A DNA stretch of 64,000 nucleotides from Bdellovibrionia bacterium (GTDB lineage: Bacteria; Bdellovibrionota; Bdellovibrionia; Bdellovibrionales; JAGQZY01), in the NCBI GenBank assembly GCA_030424715.1, contig JAUHWH010000007.1, forward strand, positions 62,001 to 126,000. The letters run 5' to 3'. Both the position numbers and the translations under genes were made by a program. The notes beneath the pieces are model-generated. The model had not been told where the DNA came from. It made no database searches and was given only the letters and a program-made list of their open reading frames with translations. Of the stretch, positions 6,675 through 27,267 are shown one piece after another; positions within the stretch are counted from its first letter, which is position 1; each line of letters begins with the position of its first letter.

Positions 6675-6839
6675 TCTAGGGATAGGTGGCCTCAGAGGTC
6701 AACGGAAATGGCCGCTTGTTTCGGATGCCTGGCCTGTCGGCGCCGAGGTCTCCACTAAGTTCAATGGGGAACCCGCAATTGATCTTTTGGGGCACCTTTG
6801 ATAGTTTTCGCTATACAGAAATCGAGCAAGGAGAGTCCG

Positions 6840-7601
6840 GTGAAAAAAAGAGCATTGGTTTGTGGAGCTTCACAGGGCATTGGCCGTGCCACTGCGAAAG
6901 AGCTGGCCCAGGAAGGTGTGGCGGTGACGGTCTTCGCTCGAAGTGAAGACAAACTCAAGGCCCTAGTCGGTGAGCTTGCCGGTGAAGGCCACGATTTCAT
7001 GGTCGGTGATATCGGGAACCCCGCCACTTGGACTGATGAGTTACAAAAACGACATTCTGCAAACCCATACTCGATTCTTATTCTTAACTCTGGCGGCCCC
7101 AAAGGCGGGGCGATCTCGCAAGCGCAACCTGAAGAGTTTATGCAAGCCATGCAAAATCATTTGGTTGCCAATTCAATATTGGTTCGCACTGTTATGGACG
7201 GGATGAAGCAAAAATCTTTTGGTCGTATAGTTACGATCACCTCCACTTCGGTTAAGGTCCCCATTCCCCATCTCGGGGTGTCTAATACGGCGCGAGCGGC
7301 GGTGGCAAGTTGGGGTAAGACGCTTTCGTTAGAACTGGCTCCCTATGGGATCACTGTGAATAATGTTATGCCAGGATTCACCAAGACCCCTCGTTTAGAG
7401 TCTCTCATTAAGGCCAAGGCGGAGAGTCTTGGTAAGAGCTACGCTGAGGTCGAGACCTCATGGAAGGACTTAGTTCCCATGAAGAGATTTGCCGAACCCG
7501 AGGAGACCGCCAATCTTATTGCTTTTCTTTGTAGTGACAAAGCGGCCTATATCTCTGGGCAAAGTATTGCCGTGGATGGCGGACGGGTGGGGTGCCTATG
7601 A
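6840..7601 (+). CDS. SDR-family protein of the BKR-like subgroup, catalytic Tyr and Lys replaced
   Basis: 253 aa from GTG 6840, chosen because AAGGAGAG lies just upstream. Rossmann fold with the cofactor loop CGASQGIG near the N-terminus and NSGGP where classical SDRs have NNAG. In place of the catalytic YxxxK the sequence reads GVSNTARAAV, so Tyr is Ser and Lys is Arg; the upstream catalytic Ser segment TSTSVK remains. This pattern fits the described beta-ketoacyl-ACP-reductase-like SDR subgroup that lacks a perfect catalytic tetrad. It is first in an operon with the flavin oxidoreductase and aldehyde dehydrogenase, with ATGA overlap to the next gene, so it probably acts in the same pathway. 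Substrate unknown. Confidence 0.85.
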   Translation: MKKRALVCGASQGIGRATAKELAQEGVAVTVFARSEDKLKALVGELAGEGHDFMVGDIGNPATWTDELQKRHSANPYSILILNSGGPKGGAISQAQPEEFMQAMQNHLVANSILVRTVMDGMKQKSFGRIVTITSTSVKVPIPHLGVSNTARAAVASWGKTLSLELAPYGITVNNVMPGFTKTPRLESLIKAKAESLGKSYAEVETSWKDLVPMKRFAEPEETANLIAFLCSDKAAYISGQSIAVDGGRVGCL

Positions 7602-8824
7602 AGTTCGATATTTTCCTCTCCATCTGTCAAAATGAAGTGGACGGTGTGATCCCCAGTGAAAGCCAGATGTTCAAAAACTTTTTCTCGCAAGTGAAGCTCG
7701 CCGACGAGTTGGGCTATAAAACCGCATGGATCGCTGAAACCCATTTGTCCTGCCAGGTTCAAAAAGAAAACCCCCAAGCGGTGATCCCAAACTTCCAAGG
7801 AGAAATTGGTCTTAATACTGACATCTTGCAAATGGCCCATCTTATTTTTGCTCAGACCAAACAAATCAATATTGGGTCTGCCATCCGCAACATCATGTGC
7901 AACGGCGGGCCCATCGCCCATGCTGAAGCCGTAAAGACTTTTTTGACCTTGCACTCTTTTCAGCCGTCCTCGGACCGTCTGCTGGAGCTCGGGTTTGCGG
8001 CCGGACGTTTTCCATTTTCGAATCGCCCTTACGGCGTCAAAGCTCGCAATCGTACCGAAGCGGCGGCCTGGCCAGCTCTCAACGGTCGGGTGTTTTTACA
8101 GGGAACTGAAATCTTTTTGCGATTTCTAAAAGGCGAAATTCTTGCCATTGATGACATCACGCCGATCACCCTTGATCGTGCCCTGTTTCGCAGTGACGAA
8201 GATTGGCAAAAAGTGGTGGACGTTTATAAAGACGAGTTCTCTGTATCAGGTGAGGTTTCTAAAATCTCCATTCCGGCTTTTTGGGATTTTGAAAAAGTGG
8301 GTGTGATCCCTTTTGATGCTCCCTTAGATTCTCTACGTCTAACCATTGGTGCGCACTGGGCGGAGGCCCACGAAGTGGCAAACCGTTATTTGCCTGTGGG
8401 TGTGTTTAACCTATCAATCACGCCACCGAAAGTCATCGAGGCCACCCATGAGCGTATGAAGAGCACTTTCCACAAAGACGGCGGTGCGTGGGATCGTTCC
8501 AAAATGCCGCGGACCGTTTTAGTTTTTATCAACGACGATCCAAAATTGTCAGTCCAAGAAAATGACGAAGTGGCAAAGCAAAGGGCCACGGCGGCGAACG
8601 AAGCCTATTGGTCAGCGATTCAAGGGACGATCGATCCGGTGAAATTGGCGATGGCAGTGGATAATGCCTTAGTCGGTCACCCGGAAACTGTAAAAGCGCA
8701 AATGCAAGAGCGCTTTCATCCCGAAGATCGGCTAATGCTCTGGTTTGATTTTAACAATCATGACAACGACTCGGTCACAGAATCCATGACTCTTTTTATG
8801 GAAAAAGTGGCCCCTCACTTTTAA
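7598..8824 (+). CDS. Luciferase-like (LLM class) flavin-dependent oxidoreductase
   Basis: 408 aa, starting at ATG 7598 within an ATGA overlap with the SDR stop codon. Bacterial-luciferase-type TIM barrel: the early strand FDIFLSICQNE, the LADELGYKTAWIAETHL segment typical of the family, INIGSAIRN, and PIAHAEAVKT. Enzymes of this class use FMNH2 and O2 to hydroxylate or cleave substrates such as aldehydes, sulfonates or heterocycles. The 'AETHL' His region is the usual flavin/substrate area. Located between an SDR and an aldehyde dehydrogenase, it may oxygenate a substrate whose aldehyde product goes to the next enzyme. No close named relative is recognised, so the substrate is left open. Confidence 0.8.
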   Translation: MKFDIFLSICQNEVDGVIPSESQMFKNFFSQVKLADELGYKTAWIAETHLSCQVQKENPQAVIPNFQGEIGLNTDILQMAHLIFAQTKQINIGSAIRNIMCNGGPIAHAEAVKTFLTLHSFQPSSDRLLELGFAAGRFPFSNRPYGVKARNRTEAAAWPALNGRVFLQGTEIFLRFLKGEILAIDDITPITLDRALFRSDEDWQKVVDVYKDEFSVSGEVSKISIPAFWDFEKVGVIPFDAPLDSLRLTIGAHWAEAHEVANRYLPVGVFNLSITPPKVIEATHERMKSTFHKDGGAWDRSKMPRTVLVFINDDPKLSVQENDEVAKQRATAANEAYWSAIQGTIDPVKLAMAVDNALVGHPETVKAQMQERFHPEDRLMLWFDFNNHDNDSVTESMTLFMEKVAPHF

Positions 8825-8836
8825 GGGGACCTTGCT

Positions 8837-10285
8837 ATGGAACAGATACGAAATTTAATTGGTGGCGAGATGCTCGCCTCTTTGAGTGGCGAAACTCTCG
8901 ACAACTTTAACCCGTCGACCGGCGCGGTTTACTCAAAAGTGCCTGATTCTGGTGAGGCAGATATTGATCGAGCGGTGCAAGCGGCGACGTCGGCGTTTCC
9001 GGGTTGGTCGGGGACACCCGTCAACGATCGAGTGGCTTTGATCATGAAGCTCGCTGATCTTATCGACGAGCGCGCCGAAGACCTTGCGGTTGCTGAGAGC
9101 CGCGATCAGGGTAAGCCACTATGGCTCGCCAAAGCCGTGGATATTCCAAGGGCCAGTGCTAATCTACGATTCTTCGCCCACGCCGTGATGAACACCAAGT
9201 CGGTGGCGTTTACTGACGTCAACAATGTGGTCGAGTATATCAACCGCAGCCCGATTGGGCCCTGTGCTTTGATCTCTCCTTGGAACTTACCCCTTTATAT
9301 TCTGACCTGGAAGATTGCCCCTTGTATTGCCACTGGTAACACGGCGATTTGCAAACCTTCTGAAATGACCCCGATGACCGCCGGTCTGTTTAGTGAACTT
9401 GTTATCGAAGCCGGCTTTCCTCCAGGCGTGATTAATATTGTGCATGGATTAGGTAGCAAGGCGGGCCAGGCTCTGGTCACTCATCCCGATGTTCCGGTGA
9501 TCTCTTTCACTGGGGGTACGAAGACCGGGGGCCACATTGCAGAGTCGGTGGCTCATATGTTTAAAAAAACCAGTTTTGAGTTGGGGGGTAAAAACCCCAA
9601 TATCATTTTTGCAGACTGCGATTTTGAGAAAGCCATCAGAACCTCGTTGCGCTCTAGCTTTTTGAATCAGGGGGAGATCTGCCTTTGTGGCTCTCGGATC
9701 TTCGTTGAGCAAAGTATCTACGATAAATTTGTGGAGCGTTTCGTGGCCGAGACCGATCAATTGGTTGTTGGTGACCCCATGAGTAAAAAGAGCTTCGTTG
9801 GAGCCTTGGTCTCTCGAGACCATCTTGACAAAGTTTTGTCTTACGTAGAGCTGGCGAAAAAAGAAGGTGGCACCGTTTTAACAAAAACCGGTGTCGAGGG
9901 GCTTTCCGAAGCCCACAAGCTGGGTTTCTATATGAGACCGACGGTCATTACAGGGTTGTCTCCAGAGTGTCGAGTGCAGCAAGAAGAAATCTTTGGTCCG
10001 GTGGTCACTATCACTCCTTTCACCACCGAAGAAGAGGCCTTAACCATGGCTAACGGTGTTCAGTATGGCTTGTCAGCGTCACTATGGACATCTGACAACA
10101 GTCGGGTGCATCGTTTGTCTAAAAAGATACAGGCTGGCACCGTTTGGGTGAACTCATGGATGTACCGCAACCTGCGAGCGCCGCTGGGTGGAATGAAAAG
10201 CTCCGGCATAGGACGCGAAGGCGGCGACTACTCGCTCAACTTTTTCACCGAAACCCAAAACGTCAGCGTGAGCTATAGTTCGTAA
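8837..10285 (+). CDS. Aldehyde dehydrogenase, 2-aminomuconate-semialdehyde dehydrogenase type
   Basis: 482 aa NAD(P)-dependent ALDH. Catalytic motifs are complete: ISPWNLPLY (oxyanion Asn), FTGGTKTGG, the general base Glu in FELGGKNPN, the nucleophile Cys in NQGEICLCGSR, EIFGPVV, and the C-terminal SGIGREGGDYSL. The NQGEICLCxSRIFV stretch with a double Cys and the LNFFTETQNV ending are typical of the ALDH8 / 2-aminomuconic or 2-hydroxymuconic semialdehyde dehydrogenase group (AmnC, NbaE, human ALDH8A1). It is third in the SDR-LLM-ALDH operon with a 12-base gap. AmnBA-like dioxygenase genes lie about 13.6 kb downstream on the same strand and would produce exactly this aldehyde class. Confidence 0.88.
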   Translation: MEQIRNLIGGEMLASLSGETLDNFNPSTGAVYSKVPDSGEADIDRAVQAATSAFPGWSGTPVNDRVALIMKLADLIDERAEDLAVAESRDQGKPLWLAKAVDIPRASANLRFFAHAVMNTKSVAFTDVNNVVEYINRSPIGPCALISPWNLPLYILTWKIAPCIATGNTAICKPSEMTPMTAGLFSELVIEAGFPPGVINIVHGLGSKAGQALVTHPDVPVISFTGGTKTGGHIAESVAHMFKKTSFELGGKNPNIIFADCDFEKAIRTSLRSSFLNQGEICLCGSRIFVEQSIYDKFVERFVAETDQLVVGDPMSKKSFVGALVSRDHLDKVLSYVELAKKEGGTVLTKTGVEGLSEAHKLGFYMRPTVITGLSPECRVQQEEIFGPVVTITPFTTEEEALTMANGVQYGLSASLWTSDNSRVHRLSKKIQAGTVWVNSWMYRNLRAPLGGMKSSGIGREGGDYSLNFFTETQNVSVSYSS

Positions 10286-12428: not shown

Positions 12429-12983
12429 TTACGGCGTTTCATATTGGGGTGAAATATGGGTTTCAAAGGTGTAGCCGGCTTCTTTTTGTTTAAGAAATTG
12501 ATTGTAATGCAAGCTGGTATCAATTGTGTATCCGGATTCAAAATGTCGCTTCGACTTTGAGAATGTAACTTTCGTTAGTTGGTTGCTCCCCGTGGGGGCG
12601 GTAAAGGTCACATCGACACTCATTGTTTTGTTTCCGTCAGTGAGTTCAAAAGTGCGAGTTCCTGGACTGATTGAGGTGAAATAGCAATCTGTGATGCCGG
12701 CGCCATCAGACGGGGAGCAGCCTAAGAATATGTGGTCCGAGACGTTGGCTTGGGCTCTGAGTTTAAGCCCTCCCATTATGTCGCCCGTCTCCGCGATCAC
12801 CTTTAGCTGGACCTTTGCTCGAGAGGCTCCGTCGGCCACGGCACTTTGATTCAATAGAAGCTGGGTTTGTAGAGGGTCCCAGACTAAAACCTTTGTATCG
12901 ATCTCAACATCAATACCACAGGCAGAAACAAGCAAGCATAAAATGAGGGACCATGCTAGGTGGCCCAAAAACTCGACTCTCAT
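12429..12983 (-). CDS. Lipoprotein with bacterial Ig-like (invasin-type) domain
   Basis: 184 aa with a signal peptide ending in a lipobox (LLVSAC, lipidated Cys about residue 22). Residues about 45-120 read like a bacterial Ig-like/invasin repeat: LNQSAVADGASRAKVQLKV, then GLKLRAQANV and a later TFELTD strand. It is divergently transcribed from the giant fibre gene with only 116 bases between the starts, suggesting shared regulation and perhaps a partnership on the cell surface; that link is inference. Binding target unknown. Confidence 0.7.
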   Translation of the reverse strand: MRVEFLGHLAWSLILCLLVSACGIDVEIDTKVLVWDPLQTQLLLNQSAVADGASRAKVQLKVIAETGDIMGGLKLRAQANVSDHIFLGCSPSDGAGITDCYFTSISPGTRTFELTDGNKTMSVDVTFTAPTGSNQLTKVTFSKSKRHFESGYTIDTSLHYNQFLKQKEAGYTFETHISPQYETP

Positions 12984-13099
12984 GCCCTCTCATCGGTTTA
13001 TTCTCGAGATAGGTAAAGGCTTGTTTCATTACGAGAAACTTCTCTGTTTTTTAGTCAATATCTTATGGTTTTGTTAAATATGCCGATAACTTGTCTGAT

Positions 13100-16000
13100 A
13101 TGCATCAAAAATTAAAAGGATTAAAGACAGAGAATCCCCAAGGACTACTGTTTTTAGGCATTTTAACCCTTATTTTTCCAGCCATGGTTTTGGCGGCACC
13201 CTCGAGCTTTGTCTTTCAAGGTCGAGTTTTGGACTCTGATGATGCTCCTGTTGAGGCGACCAATGTTAACTTTACGATCCAGGTTCTTTCCACTACAGAC
13301 GTTTGTTTACTCCACGAAGAGACTTTTGTGGTCAATATGGCGGGCTCGCAAGGTCAGTTTAATCTCAGTGTCGGGCAGGGGACTAACTCTGGAGCCGGTG
13401 GTCTTGCCAACCTAGAGCAAGCCCTGGACAACTCTTTACCCAATCAAACGGGGTTAACCTGTAGTTCGGGGACGTCCTATGACCCAAGTCCTGGAGACAC
13501 CCGGCGTTTACGTCTAACCTTTAACGATGGTTCTGGAGCTATAACCCTTTCAGATGATCACATTCTTGAGAGTGTGCCATACGCTCAGTATGCCAAAAAA
13601 CTAGAGGGACGAGAAGCCAACGAGTTTATACAAGTCAACGCCACAACTGCGGGTGTCACACAAGCCAACCTCGAAAGCGTATTTGATAATGCTGCCAATC
13701 AAACGGAGCTAATGGCTCTTCTCGGTGGAACTTCGAATCAGTATTCTCCGATTGCCACCAGTGGTGCTGTCGGCCTACCGACTTTCACCAATGCGGCGCC
13801 ACCTGCGGCACCCCAGGCGGGTGATGTTTGGTTTAATTCGGATTCGAATCAGGTTCTTTATTATGATGGATCTTCGACTTTACCCATCGGCGGTGGTTCA
13901 GGAACAGTGACCAGCGTAACCGCGGGTTCCGGCTTAAGTGGTGGCACTATCACAGGGACTGGCACCATTGCCATTGCCGCGGGCGGTGTTGCCGACTCGA
14001 TGTTGGCCACGGGGATCGATGCTAGTAAGATCACCGTGGGGACTCTCCCCGCGGGGGTCGTGCCCTCCGGGACGGATACTAGCAAGCTCCCATTAGCCGG
14101 CGGAACCATGTCTGGTAATATTGATATGAACGCCGCCCAGATATTAAACGCGGGACACATCACACAAACCGCCCAGTCCACATTGACCCTTGGTAACTAC
14201 AATAATGCTCAAGAGGCAACATTGGTTGCCGGTCTTGGTGCTGGTAATGCGGGTGCCACTTGGTACAACAGTGACTCTGAAACCGTAATGTACTGGGATG
14301 GGTCGGCACCGGCGGTCGCACTGACCAACAATGCAGGGACTGTGACTAACGTCACGGCTACGGCACCTCTGGCTTCATCCGGCGGGTTGACTCCCGATAT
14401 TTCGATAAGTCTGGGTAACGGTGTCTATAATAATGGTGGCAATTTGGATATCGAGTTGGATACCAATCCGGGCTTAGAGTTCAACAGTGGACGCTTACGT
14501 GCGGTTGCTGGCACGGGGCTCACACGTACGGCTGCGGGTCTCAACGCCGATATCGGGACCAGTGCCGGGCAACTGATAACAATCGATAGTTTTCCAAGTT
14601 GTGGGGCCAACCAAAAATTACAAATGAGTGCTGGCCCTATCTATAATGTCAGTTGTGTGGCTCTAGGCGAATTAGACCCAACCATGCAAACCTTGACTTC
14701 CGATGAAGTTGATCAACTGGAGACAATCGATTCAGTCACCATCACCAACACCCAGTGGGGCTATTTGGGTGCGATGACTGGAGCACCACTTGAGAGTGTA
14801 ACGGGTACGGCGCTCGATAATGTGTGGTCAACCAACGGTATTTTGGTGCGAACCGGTGGTGGTACTTATTCACAAATCACTGACGGATCAGCCAACTGGA
14901 ACACCGCTTTTGGGTGGGGCGATCATGGTGCTGCAGGCTACGCCTCCGCCACCGATGCGCTTAATCGTGATGGTTCCATCGCCATGACCGGCGACCTAAA
15001 CATGAATGGCAATGATATTATTGGTCTCAACACCGGACTCGTTGGCGCCCCAGGTTTATCGTTCACAGGCGATCCCAACACAGGAATTTGGAGCCCAGGT
15101 GCTGACACCTTCGCCATATCCACCAACGGAAGCCAGGCCATGACCGTTCTTAGCTCTGGGAACGTTGGTATCGGAACCGCAACTCCTGGGCAGACACTGG
15201 ATGTGGAAGGAAATATAGAAGCCGAACGTCTGATATTAAATACCTCGGCAGCATCTGAAATATTTTTTCAGGGTAGTGACGTTGCAAATATATTATCAAA
15301 TTCAAGTAGTGCGATGTTGGTTGGAACTGTTGACACACAGAACCTGTTCTTAAAAACAGATGATAGTAACAGAATGATCATCACTTCGACTGGTAATGTG
15401 GGAGTAGGAACGACGAATCCACTTGGTCTGCTTCATGTCAATGGAGGGGTAGGAACACTGGCGACCGGTATTCAGCTTGGTGACGGAGACAGCGGATTTT
15501 TTGAAAGCATTGACGATGAAATTGCGATTGCAGGTAATGTGGTTCGCGGTAGCGCTGGTAACTCTTCGGCTCTTATTAACTCTACAGCATCATCCACTGT
15601 ACCCACCGTCGTTCCCAATCAAACAGATCGAAACACTGGTTTGGGGCATGCTGGAGCTGACATATTATCATTGATAGCCGGTGGCACTAACGGTTTGAAT
15701 CTATTAAGCTCAGGAAACGTGGGTATTGGCACAGATTCACCAGGACGCCTGTTACAGGTGGAAGGTCCCATGAGAATCACGGCCAGTGCTTTACCTGGCT
15801 CACCTGCCGCGGGTGACATTGCGATCGACTCTGGTGACTCGAATAAATTGAAATTTTATGATGGTTCTTCATGGATCGACACCAGTGCGACCGGTGGTGG
15901 CGGTGGAGATATCACCGATGTGACGACCAACTCAGGAAGTGGTCTGTCGGGTGGTGCAGCCTCAGGGGCTGCTACGTTACAAGTTGTTGTTGACGATAGC

Positions 16001-19000
16001 ACAGTTGAAATTGCCACCAACACCATACAACTGAAAGACGCTGGTGTGACCAACGCCAAGATGGCCGCCAACTCGGTGGACACGACGCAGTTGGTGAACG
16101 ACGCCGTGACCAGTGCCAAGATCGGCGTTGGAGAAGTCGGCACCACGGATATCGCCGACGATGCTGTGACAGCAGCGAAGATTGCCGACACCACTGTTAC
16201 AGCCGGCTCTTATGGCTCCACTACACAGATCCCAACATTTACCGTGGATGCCCAAGGGCGTTTAGTAGCCGCAGGCAACGCGGCCATTACAGAGTCCGAC
16301 CCCGGTCTACAAACTTTAACCACGGCCGAAGTGGATCAACTAGAAGCCATTGATGCTGTAACTATCAATAACACCCAATGGGGTTATCTAGGAGCACTCG
16401 GTTCTACGCCAATGGAAGCCGATGGTTCCGTCGCCATGACGGGTGATTTGAATATGAACGGCAATGATATTCTTGGTTTGAACTCTGGTTTCGAAACCAC
16501 ACCCGCATTATCATTCTTTGGCGACGCCAACACAGGAATCTGGCGGCCTGCCGCCGACACTTTTGCCATTTCCACGGCAGGTAACGAAGCACTTACAGTC
16601 AACGCGACTGGAAATGTCGGTGTCGGTGTAAGTGCTCCTGCTAGAGCCTTGCATGTCACGGGCCCGATGCGTATCAATGCGAGTGCATTGCCAGGGTCTC
16701 CAGCGACAGGGGACTTGGCCATCGATTCTGGTGACTCTAATAAATTAAAATTCTACGATGGTTCTTCGTGGATCGACACGGGCGCTAGTGGCGGCGGCAG
16801 TGGTGACATTACCGACGGTGGTAACGCCCCATCTGGAACGCTGGTTCTCGGAACCAACAATGCCCAAGCCCTGTCCTTCGAAACCAACAACACTGTGGCA
16901 GCCACTTTCGACACCTCTGGAAACTTTGGTATCGGTACGGCGACACCCGGGCGATTACTGCACGTGCAAGGCCCCATGCGAATTGCCGCCAGCGCGCTCC
17001 CGGGCACTCCGGCAACAGGGGACTTGGCGATAGACTCAGGTGACTCGAATAAATTAAAATTTTACGATGGTTCTTCATGGATCGACACGGGCGCTAGTGG
17101 CGGCGGCAGTGGGGACATTACCGACGGTGGTAACGCCCCATCTGGAACACTGGTTCTCGGAACCAACAATGCCCAAGCTCTGTCCTTCGAAACCAACAAC
17201 ACTGTGGCAGCCACGTTCGACACCTCTGGAAACTTTGGTATCGGTACGGCGACACCCGCCAGAACCCTTCATGTTGAAGGGGCCCTGCGCATGGCTCCGG
17301 CTGCCTTGCCAGGCTCACCGGCCGCAGGAGACGTCGCCATTGATTCTGGCGACTCGAACAAATTAAAATTCTACGATGGTTCTTCGTGGATCGACACGGG
17401 TGCTAGTGGTGGCGGCAGTGGTGATATTACCGACGTGACCACCAACTCGGGCAGTGGTCTTTCCGGTGGCGCAGCATCGGGTGCGGCCACGCTACAAGTG
17501 GTGGTGGATGACGCCTCAGTGGAGATAGCGACTAATACCATTCAGCTCAAAGACAGTGGTGTCACCACTGCTAAAATTAATGACGGCGCGGTGACGGCGG
17601 CTAAGTTAGCGGCGACAACAGTCACTGCCGGCTCTTATGGTTCCACCACACAGATCCCAACCTTCACTGTCGATGCCCAAGGGCGCATGGTGGCGGCAGG
17701 CAATGCGGCGATCACCGAGACCGACCCTGAATTGCAAACACTAACAGTGGCTGAAATTGATCAATTAGAAACCATTGATTCAGTAACCATCGACAACACC
17801 CAGTGGGGCTATCTCGGTGGTTTGGACAGTGCCCCTATTGAAGCCGATGGTACTGTTGCCATGACGGGTGATTTCAATTTGGGTGGCAATGATATCCTAG
17901 GTTTGAGTTCCGGCTTTGAAGCCACACCCGCTCTTTCGTTTTTTGGCGATGCCAACACAGGGATCTGGCGACCGGCGGCTGATACCTTTGCAATTTCAAC
18001 AGCGGGTCTTGAAGCGTTCACGATCAACAGTTCAGGAAACATCGGGGTGGGGACCAACAACCCAGCCCGCTTGCTCCACGTCGATGGACCTTTAAGAATC
18101 ACTGCCTCAGCGGCACCAGCATCACCCATTGCTGGTGACATGTATATTGACTCGGGCGATAGCAACACCTTGAAATGGTACGATGGCAGCTCATGGCAAC
18201 CAGCCGGCTCCGTCGCTTCGGGTGATATCACCGACGTTACGACCAGTGGGACCAGTGGACTCAGTGGTGGAGCCAGCACGGGTAATGCCAACTTACAAAT
18301 CAATGTCGACGACTCCACTATAGAAATTGCCAGTAACACCGTTCGAATCAAAGACGGTGGAGCGACCACCAACAAAATTGCTGATGACGCGGTAACAGCT
18401 GCGAAACTGGCTGACACTTCGGTGACAGCTGGCTCCTACGGTTCGGCTTCATCTGTTGCTACGTTCACTGTGGACGCTCAAGGTCGTATCACGTCTGCGG
18501 GTAACTCAACAATTGTTGAGAGCGACCCCAAGGTTCAAACTCTAACCACCGGTGAAGTGGACCAGTTAGAAACCATCAACTCTGTAACGATCAACAACTC
18601 ACAGTGGGGCTTTTTAGGAGACCTCACGGCCGCCATCATGCAAACCGATGGCAGCACCGCAATGACAGGCGACATGGACATGGGCGGGCAAGGGATCATC
18701 AATCTCGAAGCCGGTTCAGCAGTCGCACCCAGTGTGTCTTTTACAGGCGATCCGAACACCGGCATCTTTTCACCTGCCGGCGATAACTTAGCTTTTAGCA
18801 CCGCTGGTGGCGAAGCCATGAACATCGATCCTACGGGAGAGGTGGGTATCGGTATCTCTGCTCCAGAACGCCTGCTACATGTAAACGGTCCCATGCGAAT
18901 CGCTGCTTCAGCTCTTCCAGGAACACCCGGTGCCGGAGACATTGCCATCGACTCAGGAGACGCCAATAAACTGAAGTACCACGATGGAACTGCCTGGCGT

Positions 19001-20257
19001 TTTTTAGCTGTGAACAACCTCGGTGATATTAGTGATGTTGATGTGTCAGGTGTCTCTGAAGGGGCCATCCTACAATACATTGGCGGCACTTGGACCGCTG
19101 TGGGTGGCGGCAACACCAGTTGTGTGCCGGTATCCTACACTACAGCGGGGACTCATAGTTACGATATCCCAGTGGGCTATCAATCGATCACTATTGAGAT
19201 GTGGGGTGGCGGCGGCGCCGGCGGTGCCGGTGAGCCCTCTTCTTGCTCCGGTGACAACGGCGGACCCGGCGGTGATTCGTCGATTGCCTCTCTGTCGCTG
19301 ACAGCTGGTGGCGGGGGTGGTGGTTTTTGTGGTACATCCAACGTAGGAGCAGGTGGTGCAGGTGGTGCTGGTGCAGGTGGTGACGTGAACACGAATGGTG
19401 ATGCCGGAGACACAGATCCTGGAAGTAATTCTGGTGCTGGTGGTGATGCGCCACTGGGGGGAATTGGCGGCGCCTCCGTAACTTCAAGCGGCGATGGTAT
19501 TGATGGTAGCGCCCCAGGTGGTGGTGGCTCGGGAGGTCGCTCTGGTGGTTCGGGCGACGCTGGTGGCGGCGGTGGCTCAGGTAGCTATGTCAAAAAGGTT
19601 TATTCTTCTGGAGATTTAGTCGCTGGTTCCACCATTAGCGATATTGTAGTGGGTGCAGGCGGCACAGCGGCTGTTTCTGGCTTCACATTAGGTGGGGCCG
19701 GTGCCGTAGGTCGCGTCACTATCACATGCTCTGACAGTCCCCCCCCAACACCAACACTCAAAAAAGTATTTGTGACGGTCAGTACCTACGCTGGCGGGCA
19801 GGTTGCGAATCAAACCACAGCCGACGCACATTGCCAGGCTCGCGCGGATGGGGCAGGTCTCACGGGTACTTTTAGAGCGTGGCTTGGGACGGATTCCGGC
19901 AGTGACCCCAATGATGTGTTCGCTGCGAACACTATTGGTTATGAAACTCCTGATGGCACCAAGGTCGCAGACAATTACGCTGACCTCACCGATGGGACTT
20001 TGGATGCAGCAATCAATAGAGATGCCAACGGTAATTCTGTCGGCACTGTGAGTGTGTGGACAAATGTGGATCAATTTGGGGAACGGGAGAGTACTTCGCA
20101 ATCCGCCGATTGTGATTTCGGTGGCGGAGACTGGTCAGATAGCAGTACGGGTCGAGATGGTAACACTGGTTCATCTGGCTCTATTACCTCATCGTGGACA
20201 ACCGGTGGCTCGTCTCAATGCAACGTTCCCAACCATCTCTATTGTTTCGAACAGTAG
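13100..20257 (+). CDS. Giant mosaic fibre/adhesin protein with phage-tail-like modules, Gly-rich region and DUF1554 lectin-like tip
   Basis: 2385 aa from ATG 13100 (a TTG nine bases upstream is possible). N-terminal signal segment ends in FPAMVLA. A domain starting FVFQGRVLDSD (about 35-170) is followed by a long mosaic shaft of recurring modules: GSGLSGG...DAVTAAK, TFTVDAQGR, QLETIDSVTI...WGYLG, MTGDLNMNGNDI, DPNTGIWSP...FAISTNG, GNVGIGT, and SGDSNKLKFYDGSSW, as in phage tail fibres. From about residue 2030 a Gly-rich tail-fibre-type domain (EMWGGGGAGG) precedes a DUF1554, C-type-lectin-like domain from about residue 2213 (VFVTVSTYAGG, ADAHCQARADGAG, FRAWLGT, final Cys-containing NHLYCFEQ). 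This architecture resembles the mosaic adhesive trimer proteins of Bdellovibrio bacteriovorus used in prey recognition. No phage genes adjoin it. Trimerisation and prey binding are inferred. Confidence 0.85.
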   Translation: MHQKLKGLKTENPQGLLFLGILTLIFPAMVLAAPSSFVFQGRVLDSDDAPVEATNVNFTIQVLSTTDVCLLHEETFVVNMAGSQGQFNLSVGQGTNSGAGGLANLEQALDNSLPNQTGLTCSSGTSYDPSPGDTRRLRLTFNDGSGAITLSDDHILESVPYAQYAKKLEGREANEFIQVNATTAGVTQANLESVFDNAANQTELMALLGGTSNQYSPIATSGAVGLPTFTNAAPPAAPQAGDVWFNSDSNQVLYYDGSSTLPIGGGSGTVTSVTAGSGLSGGTITGTGTIAIAAGGVADSMLATGIDASKITVGTLPAGVVPSGTDTSKLPLAGGTMSGNIDMNAAQILNAGHITQTAQSTLTLGNYNNAQEATLVAGLGAGNAGATWYNSDSETVMYWDGSAPAVALTNNAGTVTNVTATAPLASSGGLTPDISISLGNGVYNNGGNLDIELDTNPGLEFNSGRLRAVAGTGLTRTAAGLNADIGTSAGQLITIDSFPSCGANQKLQMSAGPIYNVSCVALGELDPTMQTLTSDEVDQLETIDSVTITNTQWGYLGAMTGAPLESVTGTALDNVWSTNGILVRTGGGTYSQITDGSANWNTAFGWGDHGAAGYASATDALNRDGSIAMTGDLNMNGNDIIGLNTGLVGAPGLSFTGDPNTGIWSPGADTFAISTNGSQAMTVLSSGNVGIGTATPGQTLDVEGNIEAERLILNTSAASEIFFQGSDVANILSNSSSAMLVGTVDTQNLFLKTDDSNRMIITSTGNVGVGTTNPLGLLHVNGGVGTLATGIQLGDGDSGFFESIDDEIAIAGNVVRGSAGNSSALINSTASSTVPTVVPNQTDRNTGLGHAGADILSLIAGGTNGLNLLSSGNVGIGTDSPGRLLQVEGPMRITASALPGSPAAGDIAIDSGDSNKLKFYDGSSWIDTSATGGGGGDITDVTTNSGSGLSGGAASGAATLQVVVDDSTVEIATNTIQLKDAGVTNAKMAANSVDTTQLVNDAVTSAKIGVGEVGTTDIADDAVTAAKIADTTVTAGSYGSTTQIPTFTVDAQGRLVAAGNAAITESDPGLQTLTTAEVDQLEAIDAVTINNTQWGYLGALGSTPMEADGSVAMTGDLNMNGNDILGLNSGFETTPALSFFGDANTGIWRPAADTFAISTAGNEALTVNATGNVGVGVSAPARALHVTGPMRINASALPGSPATGDLAIDSGDSNKLKFYDGSSWIDTGASGGGSGDITDGGNAPSGTLVLGTNNAQALSFETNNTVAATFDTSGNFGIGTATPGRLLHVQGPMRIAASALPGTPATGDLAIDSGDSNKLKFYDGSSWIDTGASGGGSGDITDGGNAPSGTLVLGTNNAQALSFETNNTVAATFDTSGNFGIGTATPARTLHVEGALRMAPAALPGSPAAGDVAIDSGDSNKLKFYDGSSWIDTGASGGGSGDITDVTTNSGSGLSGGAASGAATLQVVVDDASVEIATNTIQLKDSGVTTAKINDGAVTAAKLAATTVTAGSYGSTTQIPTFTVDAQGRMVAAGNAAITETDPELQTLTVAEIDQLETIDSVTIDNTQWGYLGGLDSAPIEADGTVAMTGDFNLGGNDILGLSSGFEATPALSFFGDANTGIWRPAADTFAISTAGLEAFTINSSGNIGVGTNNPARLLHVDGPLRITASAAPASPIAGDMYIDSGDSNTLKWYDGSSWQPAGSVASGDITDVTTSGTSGLSGGASTGNANLQINVDDSTIEIASNTVRIKDGGATTNKIADDAVTAAKLADTSVTAGSYGSASSVATFTVDAQGRITSAGNSTIVESDPKVQTLTTGEVDQLETINSVTINNSQWGFLGDLTAAIMQTDGSTAMTGDMDMGGQGIINLEAGSAVAPSVSFTGDPNTGIFSPAGDNLAFSTAGGEAMNIDPTGEVGIGISAPERLLHVNGPMRIAASALPGTPGAGDIAIDSGDANKLKYHDGTAWRFLAVNNLGDISDVDVSGVSEGAILQYIGGTWTAVGGGNTSCVPVSYTTAGTHSYDIPVGYQSITIEMWGGGGAGGAGEPSSCSGDNGGPGGDSSIASLSLTAGGGGGGFCGTSNVGAGGAGGAGAGGDVNTNGDAGDTDPGSNSGAGGDAPLGGIGGASVTSSGDGIDGSAPGGGGSGGRSGGSGDAGGGGGSGSYVKKVYSSGDLVAGSTISDIVVGAGGTAAVSGFTLGGAGAVGRVTITCSDSPPPTPTLKKVFVTVSTYAGGQVANQTTADAHCQARADGAGLTGTFRAWLGTDSGSDPNDVFAANTIGYETPDGTKVADNYADLTDGTLDAAINRDANGNSVGTVSVWTNVDQFGERESTSQSADCDFGGGDWSDSSTGRDGNTGSSGSITSSWTTGGSSQCNVPNHLYCFEQ
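16757..17375 (+). repeat. Two tandem 309-bp near-identical repeats inside the fibre gene
   Basis: The segment beginning at 16757 recurs at 17066 with only a few substitutions, and the beginning of a third copy appears at 17375 before diverging. The unit is 103 codons, so unequal recombination adds or removes whole shaft modules in frame. Each unit encodes KFYDGSSWIDTG, an SGGGSGDITDGG linker, the TNNAQALSFETNNTVAATFD strand region and FGIGTATP. Confidence 0.9.
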
Positions 20258-23636: not shown

Positions 23637-23895
23637 GGCCGTCCACTTTTTTCGCGACAGACCGCTGACTTCAGAATACGAGAGTAAACAACAATTGGCG
23701 ACTCCCAGTATGGGTTGCCCCCTTTCCACCACACTAGGGGGACCGAGGGCCCTTTTGCATCCTTCCTGTATGAGGGGTCGCAAGAGTCTCTGTCCTGCAG
23801 AGAACAGAAAATACCAGTTATTTCAGTAGCATGAGTGGTTTTGTCTTTAGGAATCTCACTGGACAAGGTCAGCGCGTGCCTTTATAGTGGCCGGC

Positions 23896-24780
23896 ATGAA
23901 GCAAAAAGGTCAAATTGTTGCGGGATGTATGGCTCCACATCCGCCTCATCTTGTGTACGGAGAAAATCCGCCACAAAATGAGCCCAAGTCGGAGTGTGGG
24001 TGGGAAACTTTACGTTGGGCGTACGAACGCTTGCGAGAATCCTTAAGTGAAATCGATTACGATGTGCTGTTGGTGCAATCACCCCATTGGCGTACCCAGA
24101 TCGGCACTCACTTTTTGGGATGTCCCGAGTTCAAATCAAAATCCGTCGATCCCATTTTTCCGCACCTGTTTCGTTTCAATTACGATTTAAAAGTCGATGT
24201 GGAATTAGCCCGCGCGATCCACGACCGTGCCTACGAAAAAGGGATGATCACCAAGATGATGGAAAACCCTGATTTCCGCATCGACTACGGCACCATCACC
24301 TCTTTGCATATGACTCGACCCACTTGGGACAAGCCGGTGGTAGGGATCTCCAGTGTGGGACGCTCCGCTTATTTCTCAATGGATGTCATGCAAGAGGAGA
24401 TGATCAAGCTCGGTGAGGCCACCCGCGAGGCCATTGAAGCCTCGGGCAAACGTTGTGTGCTGCTCGCCAGTCACTCATTGTCGCACCGTCATTTCATTAC
24501 CGAGCCTGACGTGCCAGAGGACATGAGCCAAGAGCATATCTACCATCACGGGCAGTACCTGTGGGACATGAAGATGATTGATCTGATGAAAAAAGGCGAC
24601 GTCAAAACCATTTTTGATGTGATGACCGATTTTACCGAGCAAACCATCAGCGAGTGTGATGGTGGAGGCCTGATGTGGATGCTCTCGGCCATGGGCATGC
24701 CCACCACACCAGCCAAAGTTCACGGATACGGCACCGTGATCGGTACGGGTAACGTGGTGGCCGAATGGAGAGCCCAATGA
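23896..24780 (+). CDS. Class III extradiol dioxygenase, catalytic (AmnB-like) subunit
   Basis: 294 aa LigB-fold protein resembling the beta subunit of 2-aminophenol 1,6-dioxygenase, which opens an aminophenol ring to 2-aminomuconate 6-semialdehyde. With M1 at ATG 23896 the iron ligands fall at H15 (PHPPH), H64 (QSPHWR) and E253 (SECDGGG), and the acid-base His at H197 (SLSHRHF). From memory, Pseudomonas AmnB uses H13, H62, E251 and H195, a constant offset of two, which strongly supports orthology. A GTG nine bases upstream is an alternative start. It is first of four closely packed genes; its TGA overlaps the AmnA-like start as ATGA. The exact substrate (2-aminophenol, a carboxylated form, or protocatechuate-like) cannot be fixed. 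Confidence 0.87.
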   Translation: MKQKGQIVAGCMAPHPPHLVYGENPPQNEPKSECGWETLRWAYERLRESLSEIDYDVLLVQSPHWRTQIGTHFLGCPEFKSKSVDPIFPHLFRFNYDLKVDVELARAIHDRAYEKGMITKMMENPDFRIDYGTITSLHMTRPTWDKPVVGISSVGRSAYFSMDVMQEEMIKLGEATREAIEASGKRCVLLASHSLSHRHFITEPDVPEDMSQEHIYHHGQYLWDMKMIDLMKKGDVKTIFDVMTDFTEQTISECDGGGLMWMLSAMGMPTTPAKVHGYGTVIGTGNVVAEWRAQ

Positions 24781-25763
24781 CAAAAGCAGAATACACAGAC
24801 AGCCATTGCGCCAATGTTTTAAAGGGTTTTGTTTTGCCAGGCTTGCCGCACCCTTTACTCAAGCCCGAAGGTCGCCCCGCTTGGCAGAAGCTACGCCAAG
24901 CCTACGACAAAGTGGCCGAAGAAGTTGAGGCTCTGAGCCCCGATCTGATTTTAATCTACAGCACCTACTGGGCCAGTATTTTGGGGCACCAGATCCAAGC
25001 CTTGCCCAATCCCAAGTGGACCTTGGTGGATGACGAGTGGCACGACCTGGGCAGCATCCCCTATGAGTTCACAACAGACGTGGAGTTTGCCAAAGCCTAC
25101 AATGAGGCCAACCTAGAGCGGGGGTTACAGTCGCGCTTGACCGCGTACGAGGGCTTTCCCATTGATACCGGCTCTGTGGTTTGTTTAAAGCTTCTTGATC
25201 CAAAAAATAAATTCAAATCCTGCATTGTTTCGAGCAATATCTACTCGGACCGAGCTGAGCAAATCATTTTGGGCAAAGGGGCTCGTGATGCTTTGGAAAA
25301 GTCGGGCAAAAAGGCGGTGGTGATTTCCATTAGTAGTCTGTCGAACCGTTACAGCATTGTCGAGCCCGACGCTTGCCCCGACGCGATCTCGTCAAAAAAA
25401 GATGAAGAGTGGAACCAGAAGTTCCTCGAGTTTCTAAGCAAAGGCCGGCTCGAGGACGTTTCGCAACTGTCGCGACAGTTTCATCGAGAGGCACGAGTCA
25501 CTAAAAAAGTGGTAAACTACAAACCCTTTTGGTGGCTGGCCTCGGTAATGGGCGAGACCAATGCCTATCATGGTGAAATTTTAGAATACCAGCCTGTGCA
25601 GGGCACAGGGGCGGCGATTGTTGGTCTAACGGCGACGGCCCAACCGGCCCCTGACCTGGAATTTGACGAAGACAATGTCGATGTTTTTCAAGGCGATCGT
25701 AACGTGCTTTCGGGCGAAGAACCTGCGACCAGCCCTTCGTTTGACGACGGAGCCCCAACGTGA
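24777..25763 (+). CDS. Class III extradiol dioxygenase, non-catalytic (AmnA-like) subunit
   Basis: 328 aa LigB-fold paralogue of the preceding gene. The first metal-type His is kept (GLPHPLLKPE), but the second His is replaced (IYSTYWAS against QSPHWR in the partner) and the Glu region reads VVNYKPFWW, so iron cannot be bound normally. This matches the alpha subunit of aminophenol dioxygenase, which is structural. The start ATG 24777 overlaps the upstream stop as ATGA. An unusual acidic C-terminal tail of about 40 residues (DLEFDEDNVDVF to the end) extends beyond the domain. Its stop overlaps the next gene's GTG start. Expected to form a heterodimer or heterotetramer with the AmnB-like subunit. 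Confidence 0.85.
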   Translation: MTKAEYTDSHCANVLKGFVLPGLPHPLLKPEGRPAWQKLRQAYDKVAEEVEALSPDLILIYSTYWASILGHQIQALPNPKWTLVDDEWHDLGSIPYEFTTDVEFAKAYNEANLERGLQSRLTAYEGFPIDTGSVVCLKLLDPKNKFKSCIVSSNIYSDRAEQIILGKGARDALEKSGKKAVVISISSLSNRYSIVEPDACPDAISSKKDEEWNQKFLEFLSKGRLEDVSQLSRQFHREARVTKKVVNYKPFWWLASVMGETNAYHGEILEYQPVQGTGAAIVGLTATAQPAPDLEFDEDNVDVFQGDRNVLSGEEPATSPSFDDGAPT

Positions 25764-26833
25764 AGGTCTATCCCTCAAGCCCTCTGGGCGAAAAGTCGGA
25801 GCTGCCCACCGGCCGCGATGTGGAGTGGGAGCCCTTAGTTGATTTTCGCCGTAACGGGGTGAGCGAAAACACCATTCATGGTGCCGTGTCTTGGTACAGT
25901 GGGGATAAAAAGATCCACGCATGGGGTGGTAATGTGCTGTGCTACGGCCGCTCTATGATGAAACCCTTTTATATAAAAATATTTGCTGATGAATTAAAAG
26001 AGACCACCGACTGGAAGCAAAAGGCCATCGCCCTTGCCAGTCACAACGGCACCGCCCAGCATGTCGAAGCGGCACAAAGTTTATTGAGTGAAGGGGAGTG
26101 GGGCCTAATGCTAACTCCTCTCGATTTGCCTTTGGTGCAGTTCGGGAGACAAGTTCGTCGCCCACGTCGCTGGTACAACAACTCGTCCGGGCATCACGCC
26201 GCGATCTTGAAAGGCTGCCGTCTGAAGGGATGGAACCGTGCGGGCTACACTCTGCCAAACCATCAGGTGTTTAAAGCTTTTCTTGATGTGGTGAAAGACT
26301 ATCTGGGCCCCGACTACGAACCCCTGCGAGTGGCTCGCGATGGCGATGGTCTACCGACTGTTGCGATGACGGTGAACGAGCTGGCTCAGTGTTACGGCAA
26401 GCTCGCCCAAAAAAAACAGGAGGACTGGATCTGGGAGGCCTTCACCCGCGAAGCCGACCTGATCGGTGGCTTCAACCGATTGGACACCACGGTGATTAAA
26501 TCTTGCAATGGCAAGGTCATTGCCAAAGAGGGAGCCGACGGTCTTTTGGGTATGGCCATTGAGCACCCCGACTATCCCGATGGATTGGGAGTGGTGATCA
26601 AGATTGCCCATGGTTGGAACCCCCAGGCCACTTGGTATGTGGCCCGCTCCATCTTGGGAGTGCTCGGTATGGAGTTGCGCAACCCTTATCCCTTGCGTCG
26701 GCAAAAGGCTTTTGTAGTGCCAGGGATTGTTCCCGAAAATTTGGTTTCAAAAATCGAAGAGGTGCCCACCTGGGACGAGTGGGACCCTGATCACGATCGT
26801 TGGTATTTCGACTACCAAGATCACAACTGGTAA
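25760..26833 (+). CDS. L-asparaginase II family (PF06089-type) protein with altered metal site
   Basis: 357 aa, GTG start inside a GTGA overlap with the AmnA-like stop. The serine-beta-lactamase-like fold motifs of Rhizobium etli type asparaginases are present: S65xxK68 in GRSMMKPF, S94-H95 in LASHNGT, and IAKEGADG with a later VVIKIAHG. However, the zinc-site positions differ. As recalled, the R. etli enzyme coordinates Zn with Cys, Lys and Cys in CSGKH and DGCG; here the corresponding motifs are S142-S-G-H145-H and D194-G-D196-G. The catalytic Asp position is kept. Placement between ring-cleavage and deaminase genes suggests an amide or C-N hydrolysing role in that pathway rather than asparagine catabolism. 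Function is inference. Confidence 0.8.
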   Translation: MKVYPSSPLGEKSELPTGRDVEWEPLVDFRRNGVSENTIHGAVSWYSGDKKIHAWGGNVLCYGRSMMKPFYIKIFADELKETTDWKQKAIALASHNGTAQHVEAAQSLLSEGEWGLMLTPLDLPLVQFGRQVRRPRRWYNNSSGHHAAILKGCRLKGWNRAGYTLPNHQVFKAFLDVVKDYLGPDYEPLRVARDGDGLPTVAMTVNELAQCYGKLAQKKQEDWIWEAFTREADLIGGFNRLDTTVIKSCNGKVIAKEGADGLLGMAIEHPDYPDGLGVVIKIAHGWNPQATWYVARSILGVLGMELRNPYPLRRQKAFVVPGIVPENLVSKIEEVPTWDEWDPDHDRWYFDYQDHNW

Positions 26834-26847
26834 AAGGATAGTTTCTC

Positions 26848-27267
26848 ATGAGCGATCAAATCATAAGTCAAACAGCACCAGAGCCGGTGGGTTCTTACCC
26901 TCACGCCCGTCGCGTGGGTGACCTTTTATTTTTGTCAGGTGTGGGGCCGCGCAAAAAAGGCACAAAAGAGATCCCGGGAGTGACCTTTGATGCCGACCGC
27001 AACGTCGTCAGTTACGATGTGGCTTTGCAGACCCACTCGGTGATCGAGAACATTCGCACCGTTTTGCAAGACTCCGGACTCGACTTAGAGAACTTGGTGG
27101 ACGTGCAGTGTTTTTTGACCAACATGAAGCAAGACTTTAAATCTTTTAACAAAGTCTACGGAGAGTACTTCTCGGTTGAGACCGGTCCTTGTCGAACTAC
27201 GGTCGAAGTGGGTGCGCTGCCCACACCCATTGCGGTGGAGTTTAAAGCCATCGCTTCTTTCAAATAA
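26848..27267 (+). CDS. RidA-family protein, 2-aminomuconate deaminase-like
   Basis: 139 aa RidA/YjgF fold with the conserved carboxylate-binding Arg in PCRTTVEVG and C-terminal Glu in AVEFKAIA. The N-terminal YPHARRVGDLLFLSG and the insert GPRKKGTKEIPGV are characteristic of the 2-aminomuconate deaminase subgroup (AmnD/NbaF), which converts 2-aminomuconate to 4-oxalocrotonate, rather than generic RidA. It is the last gene of the tight amnB-amnA-asparaginase-like run, 14 bases after its neighbour. It overlaps the 3' end of the convergent membrane-protein gene by 8 bases. Confidence 0.85.
   Translation: MSDQIISQTAPEPVGSYPHARRVGDLLFLSGVGPRKKGTKEIPGVTFDADRNVVSYDVALQTHSVIENIRTVLQDSGLDLENLVDVQCFLTNMKQDFKSFNKVYGEYFSVETGPCRTTVEVGALPTPIAVEFKAIASFK

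Follow-up and report, generated by a model that had tools for sequence, protein, structure and literature searches.

The gene at 13100-20257 of the window analysed here, a stretch of 64,000 nucleotides from a Bdellovibrionia bacterium, likely encodes an outer-surface trimeric fibre of the mosaic adhesive trimer (MAT) family that makes contact with prey and that carries an endostatin-fold tip obtained by horizontal transfer. How predatory bacteria choose their prey is an open question for which MAT tips are the leading candidates, and our analysis adds an endostatin-fold tip to the MAT tip types, delimited as a 169-residue fragment. Such a tip is described for no other fibre of this kind in the literature searched, which held no report joining Bdellovibrio and endostatin; the supplementary tables of the MAT paper list further tips, and an earlier mention may be found there. 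As the same domain stands at the ends of many surface proteins, a ligand found for this one tip could explain many proteins.

Gene architecture and family membership

The open reading frame that the earlier note had delimited is exactly as it described, running on the forward strand from an ATG at 13100 to a stop at 20257 and encoding 2385 residues, intact and without an internal stop. An in-frame TTG 9 nt upstream of this ATG, at 13091, is a possible start. The features of the gene, all on the forward strand, are as follows.

13100..20257 (+): MAT-family giant fibre protein, 2385 aa (intact ORF and MAT N-domain; alternative in-frame TTG start at 13091)
13100..13195 (+): putative signal peptide, aa 1-32, ...FPAMVLA/APSS (judged by eye from the translated sequence)
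13163..13639 (+): conserved MAT N-terminal domain, aa 22-180 (NF053851, E 4.4e-41, 140 bits)
13145..14686 (+): N-domain and proximal shaft, aa 16-529; shares 63% identity with the contig C8 paralogue that has an S74 tip (blastp)
14687..19069 (+): distal shaft, aa ~530-1990, built of recurring modules of phage-tail-fibre/beta-helix type that contain 'GNxGIGTxxP' motifs (PHROGs, 8ojn and 8ond matches, repeats, motifs)
16650..17258 (+): tandem pair of 300-nt shaft repeats (family D4), 89% identical, spacing 309 nt or 103 codons (repeat analysis)
19121..19729 (+): glycine-rich tail-fibre-type domain, aa 2008-2210 (32% Gly; Gly_rich_2 just under cutoff)
19748..20254 (+): C-terminal tip of predicted endostatin fold (DUF1554/Len-like), aa 2217-2385, four invariant cysteines (AlphaFold, VIA-align, Foldseek, profile search, alignment)

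The N-terminus resembles a signal peptide by eye, as had been proposed, with the hydrophobic stretch LLFLGILTLIFPAMVLA followed by AAPSS. Directly after it, the curated NCBIfam model NF053851 ('Bdello_MAT_N, mosaic adhesive trimer family chimeric fiber protein') matches residues 22-180 with 140 bits against a cutoff of 60, and this domain is presumed to serve attachment to the cell surface. A Pfam scan of the whole 2385-residue protein returned nothing above cutoff; Peptidase_S74 was absent in that scan, and the protein stands outside the MAT S74 subgroup. Sequence searches with phmmer matched the shaft to MAT shaft structures, including 8ojn (E 1.4e-9) and 8ond (Bd2133; E 3.6e-6). The entries 8ojn, 8onb and 8onc form one series of matched shaft chains, labelled 'Cell wall surface anchor family protein', which we take from the deposit series to be Bd2439. 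The MAT shafts of the matched crystal structures are trimeric (PMC10769870). Because the N-domain model scores above cutoff and the shaft is homologous to solved MAT shafts, the protein can be assigned from its sequence to the MAT family, and the likeness to Bdellovibrio mosaic adhesive trimers that the earlier note had drawn is thereby given a firmer footing.

The phage-tail-type modules that had been claimed for the shaft are evident by several routes. PHROGs tail-fibre families match several of its stretches (E 9e-48 and 2e-40), tblastn against phage records retrieved mostly tail fibres of Synechococcus and Prochlorococcus phages, none of which covers more than 9% of the protein, and the fibre DNA contains long direct repeats in 2-6 copies, among them D1 (162 nt, six copies) and D2 (300 nt, three copies). 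Together with the tandem D4 pair, these direct repeats show that the shaft grew by duplication. The claimed Gly-rich tail-fibre domain is recognisable by its composition, with 32% glycine over residues ~2008-2210, and when this segment was scanned alone it reached 21.8 bits with Pfam Gly_rich_2 (PF21722), below the cutoff of 24.3.

Fold and sequence relationships of the tip

A single-chain AlphaFold model of the tip, built on a 47-row alignment, has a pLDDT of 92.2 and a pTM of 0.90, and 157 of its 169 residues superpose on endostatin at 2.1 Å with a Z score of 20. Across endostatin entries VIA-align gave Z 18.8-20.3 at 2.1-2.2 Å over 153-158 residues, against Z of at most 5.4 for snake-venom C-type lectins. 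Five endostatin entries ranked first in Foldseek (E 4e-9 to 2e-7) with all others at E > 0.5, and no bacterial endostatin-like crystal structure was among the PDB matches from that list. A profile of the tip alignment searched against PDB sequences retrieved endostatin chains alone at E <= 1, with values from E 1.2e-14 (1koe) to 1.6e-11. The 47 aligned tips share four invariant cysteines, which in the window protein are C2245, C2338, C2374 and C2382, and in the profile alignment all four align with endostatin cysteines. The model and the profile matches point to an endostatin-fold domain, a distant branch of the C-type-lectin-like fold, and for that reason the word 'lectin-like' is no proof of sugar binding. 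The tip is also very acidic (pI 4.1, charge -13), whereas the surface of endostatin is basic and heparin-binding, which makes binding by that route unlikely.

The terminal DUF1554 domain named in the earlier note stands as a C-terminal domain whose relatives score with that family, while the label does not carry over to this protein, for which Pfam DUF1554 (PF07588) gave no match at E <= 10 and the predicted fold is that of endostatin. Against the DUF1554 cutoff of 27.5 bits, the nearest tip relative (L107, 49% identical) scores 42.9 bits, and L097, L096 and L106 (the last 45% identical) score 41.4, 30.7 and 25.3. The tip is homologous to accepted DUF1554 members though PF07588 itself does not score it. 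Pfam Endostatin (PF06482) was not reported for the window tip, and several tip relatives pass its threshold. The Leptospira Len models NF047482 and NF047483 had no match to the window protein at E <= 0.1; some tip relatives match NCBIfam Len models far below cutoff, two of them weakly with the LenA/B model.

Proposed role

In the mechanism we favour, the signal peptide most likely exports the fibre and the conserved MAT N-domain most likely holds it at the outer surface, while three chains would intertwine over ~1800 residues of phage-tail-fibre-type modules and push the C-terminus far from the cell. The far end would display the Gly-rich segment and then the endostatin-fold tip, closed by its four invariant cysteines, most likely in two disulphides. 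The most likely partner of this tip is a ligand on other cells, prey first, as is also supposed for the TNF-like and C-type-lectin tips found on MATs of Bdellovibrio; the tip probably reached the fibre by domain exchange and horizontal transfer. We infer the disulphide pairing and, by analogy with known MATs, the trimer, its surface display and its contact with prey; adhesion of the tip by protein or glycan binding is suggested by its fold and by the Len proteins (PMC2063517).

Distribution and origin of the tip

Among 369 sampled genomes of the phylum, MAT_N was found in 137 and the tip domain in 66, the latter count being made with the A3 profile; the tip alignment A1 was too diverse for profile scanning. 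When all ORFs of the fetched loci were scanned with the MAT_N and tip profiles, a survey that took in nearly all tip-bearing ORFs longer than 500 aa from the 66-genome list, the window gene was the only one to join the two in one ORF. With no other gene of its own genome found to carry this tip, the distinctness that the earlier note had attributed to it is supported at both levels. In relatives, the domain is mostly found either at the C-terminus of a long exported protein or in a short lipoprotein-like one, and it also follows Ig, PKD, PARCEL or collagen-like stalks. Many surface proteins from Myxococcota, Bdellovibrionota, Micavibrio and Patescibacteria end in it, and several of these groups live by attachment to other cells.

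In our tree the window tip and an alphaproteobacterial protein form a pair (98/94) that lies away from the other Bdellovibrionota tips, on long branches and with a bootstrap that had not settled; this pairing suggests that the tip was gained horizontally. GC3 of the tip is 0.47 against 0.43-0.58 elsewhere, with no clear foreign signature, and a search for a diversity-generating retroelement template found the sequence 19700-20257 at no other place in the genome.

Related domains were also seen in other arrangements. In Bdellovibrio sp. MAG_58 (L098:2248-6481, genome G147; also L164) two short genes for exported endostatin-like proteins (224 and 222 aa) stand head to tail behind a 974-aa MAT gene on the same strand, as though the fibre and tip-like proteins had separate genes. 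Four loci from Patescibacteria and unplaced bacteria (L109, L116, L118 and L133) combine prepilin-like N-termini (GF.L.E, by eye) with an endostatin-fold domain at the end, as if the domain were presented on type IV pili. On JAUSGE010000021.1 (L156:2-3223), a phage-type shaft with 'GNVGIGTTTP' motifs is combined with a stretch resembling dockerin and with a C-terminal endostatin-like tip; the N-terminus of this protein is cut off, and as far as visible it lies outside the MAT family. Collagen-like Gly-X-Y stretches precede an endostatin-like domain in Haliea sp. (L137:1-1230).

A MAT-type fibre could instead recognise a non-prey ligand, such as an algal, protist or animal matrix or a biofilm polysaccharide, and serve in surface attachment or host association. 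Homologous domains do occur in many bacteria not known as predators, among them Crocinitomicaceae, Pseudoalteromonas and Patescibacteria, and laminin, fibronectin and complement regulators are bound by the best studied relatives (PMC2063517). As these known Len and endostatin ligands are animal proteins, the binding record of the domain does not indicate bacterial prey. We nevertheless hold a non-prey ligand to be unlikely, if worth keeping in view, as the shared N-domain and shaft place the protein in a predator MAT family and the MAT repertoire of its genome is comparable to that of Bdellovibrio bacteriovorus, with 21 members in HD100 (Caulton et al. 2024; PMC10769870).

Paralogues in the genome

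The genome, which falls in the Bdellovibrionales (3.13 Mb, 18 contigs), contains 12 MAT N-domains above cutoff and one fragment. The comparison of tips among paralogues that had been called for earlier shows that the closest of them, on contig C8, shares the base of the window protein (63% identity over residues 16-529), diverges beyond it and ends in Peptidase_S74, while other MAT paralogues end in S74, Peptidase_G2 or unclassified domains. Because the C8 paralogue has the same base but an S74 chaperone tip, MAT tips appear to have been exchanged. Collagen repeats are present in the shafts of four paralogues of this genome (L071, L078, L080 and L081). Contig ends of C1, C7, C12, C13, C15, C16 and C18 fall inside MAT genes, and the repertoire and shaft lengths are therefore under-resolved.

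The S74 and G2 domains that paralogues bear at the same position are autoproteolytic chaperones, which would fit a mainly structural tip, a S74-like cap that aids trimer folding or register rather than an adhesin. We consider such a cap improbable: no protease motif was recognised in the tip, and domains of endostatin fold are also found in short lipoprotein-like products standing on their own or on Ig, PKD, PARCEL and collagen-like stalks, and thus do not require a fibre. The repetitive nature of MAT genes, several of which stop at contig ends in this assembly, also raises the prospect of a chimera in which a MAT 5' part was misjoined to an unrelated 3' part through repeated shaft modules. 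This seems very improbable to us, as the frame stays open through all junctions, no second gene carries this tip, and the shaft repeats that run up to the Gly-rich domain differ from one another (60-89% identity), making repeat collapse less likely.

Genomic neighbourhood

The flanking genes scanned encode an AdoHcy hydrolase, M24 peptidase, SDR, luciferase-like monooxygenase, aldehyde dehydrogenase and histidine kinase/response-regulator hybrid, together with a Big_1-like protein, TonB receptor, fatty-acid-hydroxylase-type protein, two HpaD-like dioxygenases, asparaginase II, RidA-type protein and M1 peptidase. These are metabolic, regulatory or transport genes, mostly housekeeping, and the only tRNA is at 32.3 kb. 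The scan of the neighbours revealed no phage structural genes, in keeping with the absence of phage genes nearby that the earlier note had remarked on, and the cryptic prophage that it had raised as a counter-explanation was not seen among them. A prophage tail fibre embedded in phage genes was on this ground ruled against. A phage tail fibre or prophage relic, for which the resemblance of the shaft modules to phage tail fibres would speak, is scarcely credible given a MAT N-domain with a signal-peptide-like start, neighbours of this kind, and a tip with no match in phage records, no relative confirmed in viral contigs (a limited search with the tip alignment via two short patterns) and no match of its model to viral structures at E 1e-3.

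Beside the fibre, a small divergent gene at 12429-12983 (-) has a weak Big_1/invasin D3 match at E 7e-5, below cutoff, and its product is possibly a surface lipoprotein. The segments 6798-10285 and 23887-27267, which flank the fibre gene, resemble portions of a cluster for breaking down aromatic compounds or amino acids, with their genes for the aldehyde dehydrogenase, SDR, luciferase-like monooxygenase, two HpaD-like extradiol dioxygenases, asparaginase II and RidA-type protein. In a genome of the same genus (G201) no MAT gene accompanies the TonB-receptor orthologue, which sits at the end of a contig and has unrelated genes upstream; this arrangement could reflect an insertion, a loss or a rearrangement.

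Comparison with known systems

The window protein shares with the MATs of B. bacteriovorus a signal-peptide-like start, a conserved N-domain, a phage-like beta-helix shaft homologous to Bd2439 and Bd2133, a variable tip and a large paralogous set, and differs from them in its length of 2385 aa, against their typical ~1000 aa, and in its Gly-rich segment and endostatin-fold tip (PMC10769870). The solved MAT tips described comprise S74, two new beta-sandwiches, a TNF-like fold and a C-type lectin (PMC10769870). A point against the prey-contact reading is that single-gene MAT deletions rarely affect predation (PMC10769870). Bd2740, a MAT with a C-type-lectin-fold tip, is alike in ending its fibre with the wide C-type-lectin-like fold (PMC10769870). 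The window tip is set apart from it by belonging to the endostatin branch (Z 20 versus ~5, with classical C-type lectins standing in for Bd2740), by four conserved cysteines and by a length of 169 aa versus 110.

An endostatin-like domain at the bacterial surface is also found in the Leptospira Len proteins (LenA-F), endostatin-like outer membrane proteins that bind laminin, fibronectin and complement regulators (PMC2063517). Those proteins are small and without a fibre, and the window protein has no NCBIfam Len match. With DUF1554 (PF07588) the relationship runs through L107, which lies above the cutoff that leaves the window tip itself unscored.

Endostatin, which binds matrix at the end of animal collagen XVIII and is also present in collagen XV, forms the C-terminal end of a trimeric fibre protein. 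The window tip resembles it in the predicted fold of the whole domain (2.1 Å over 157 residues), in four aligned cysteines and in its C-terminal position, and differs in being bacterial, 20-24% identical, acidic rather than basic and mounted on a different shaft. Tentatively, and at some distance from our main proposal, a phage-derived trimeric fibre capped by an endostatin-homologous domain might represent a collagen-XVIII-like layout of stalk and cap that evolved separately in predatory bacteria and serves to grip other bacteria; on that view the endostatin fold would be an ancient adhesion module widely shared among bacteria, and animal endostatin one of its branches.
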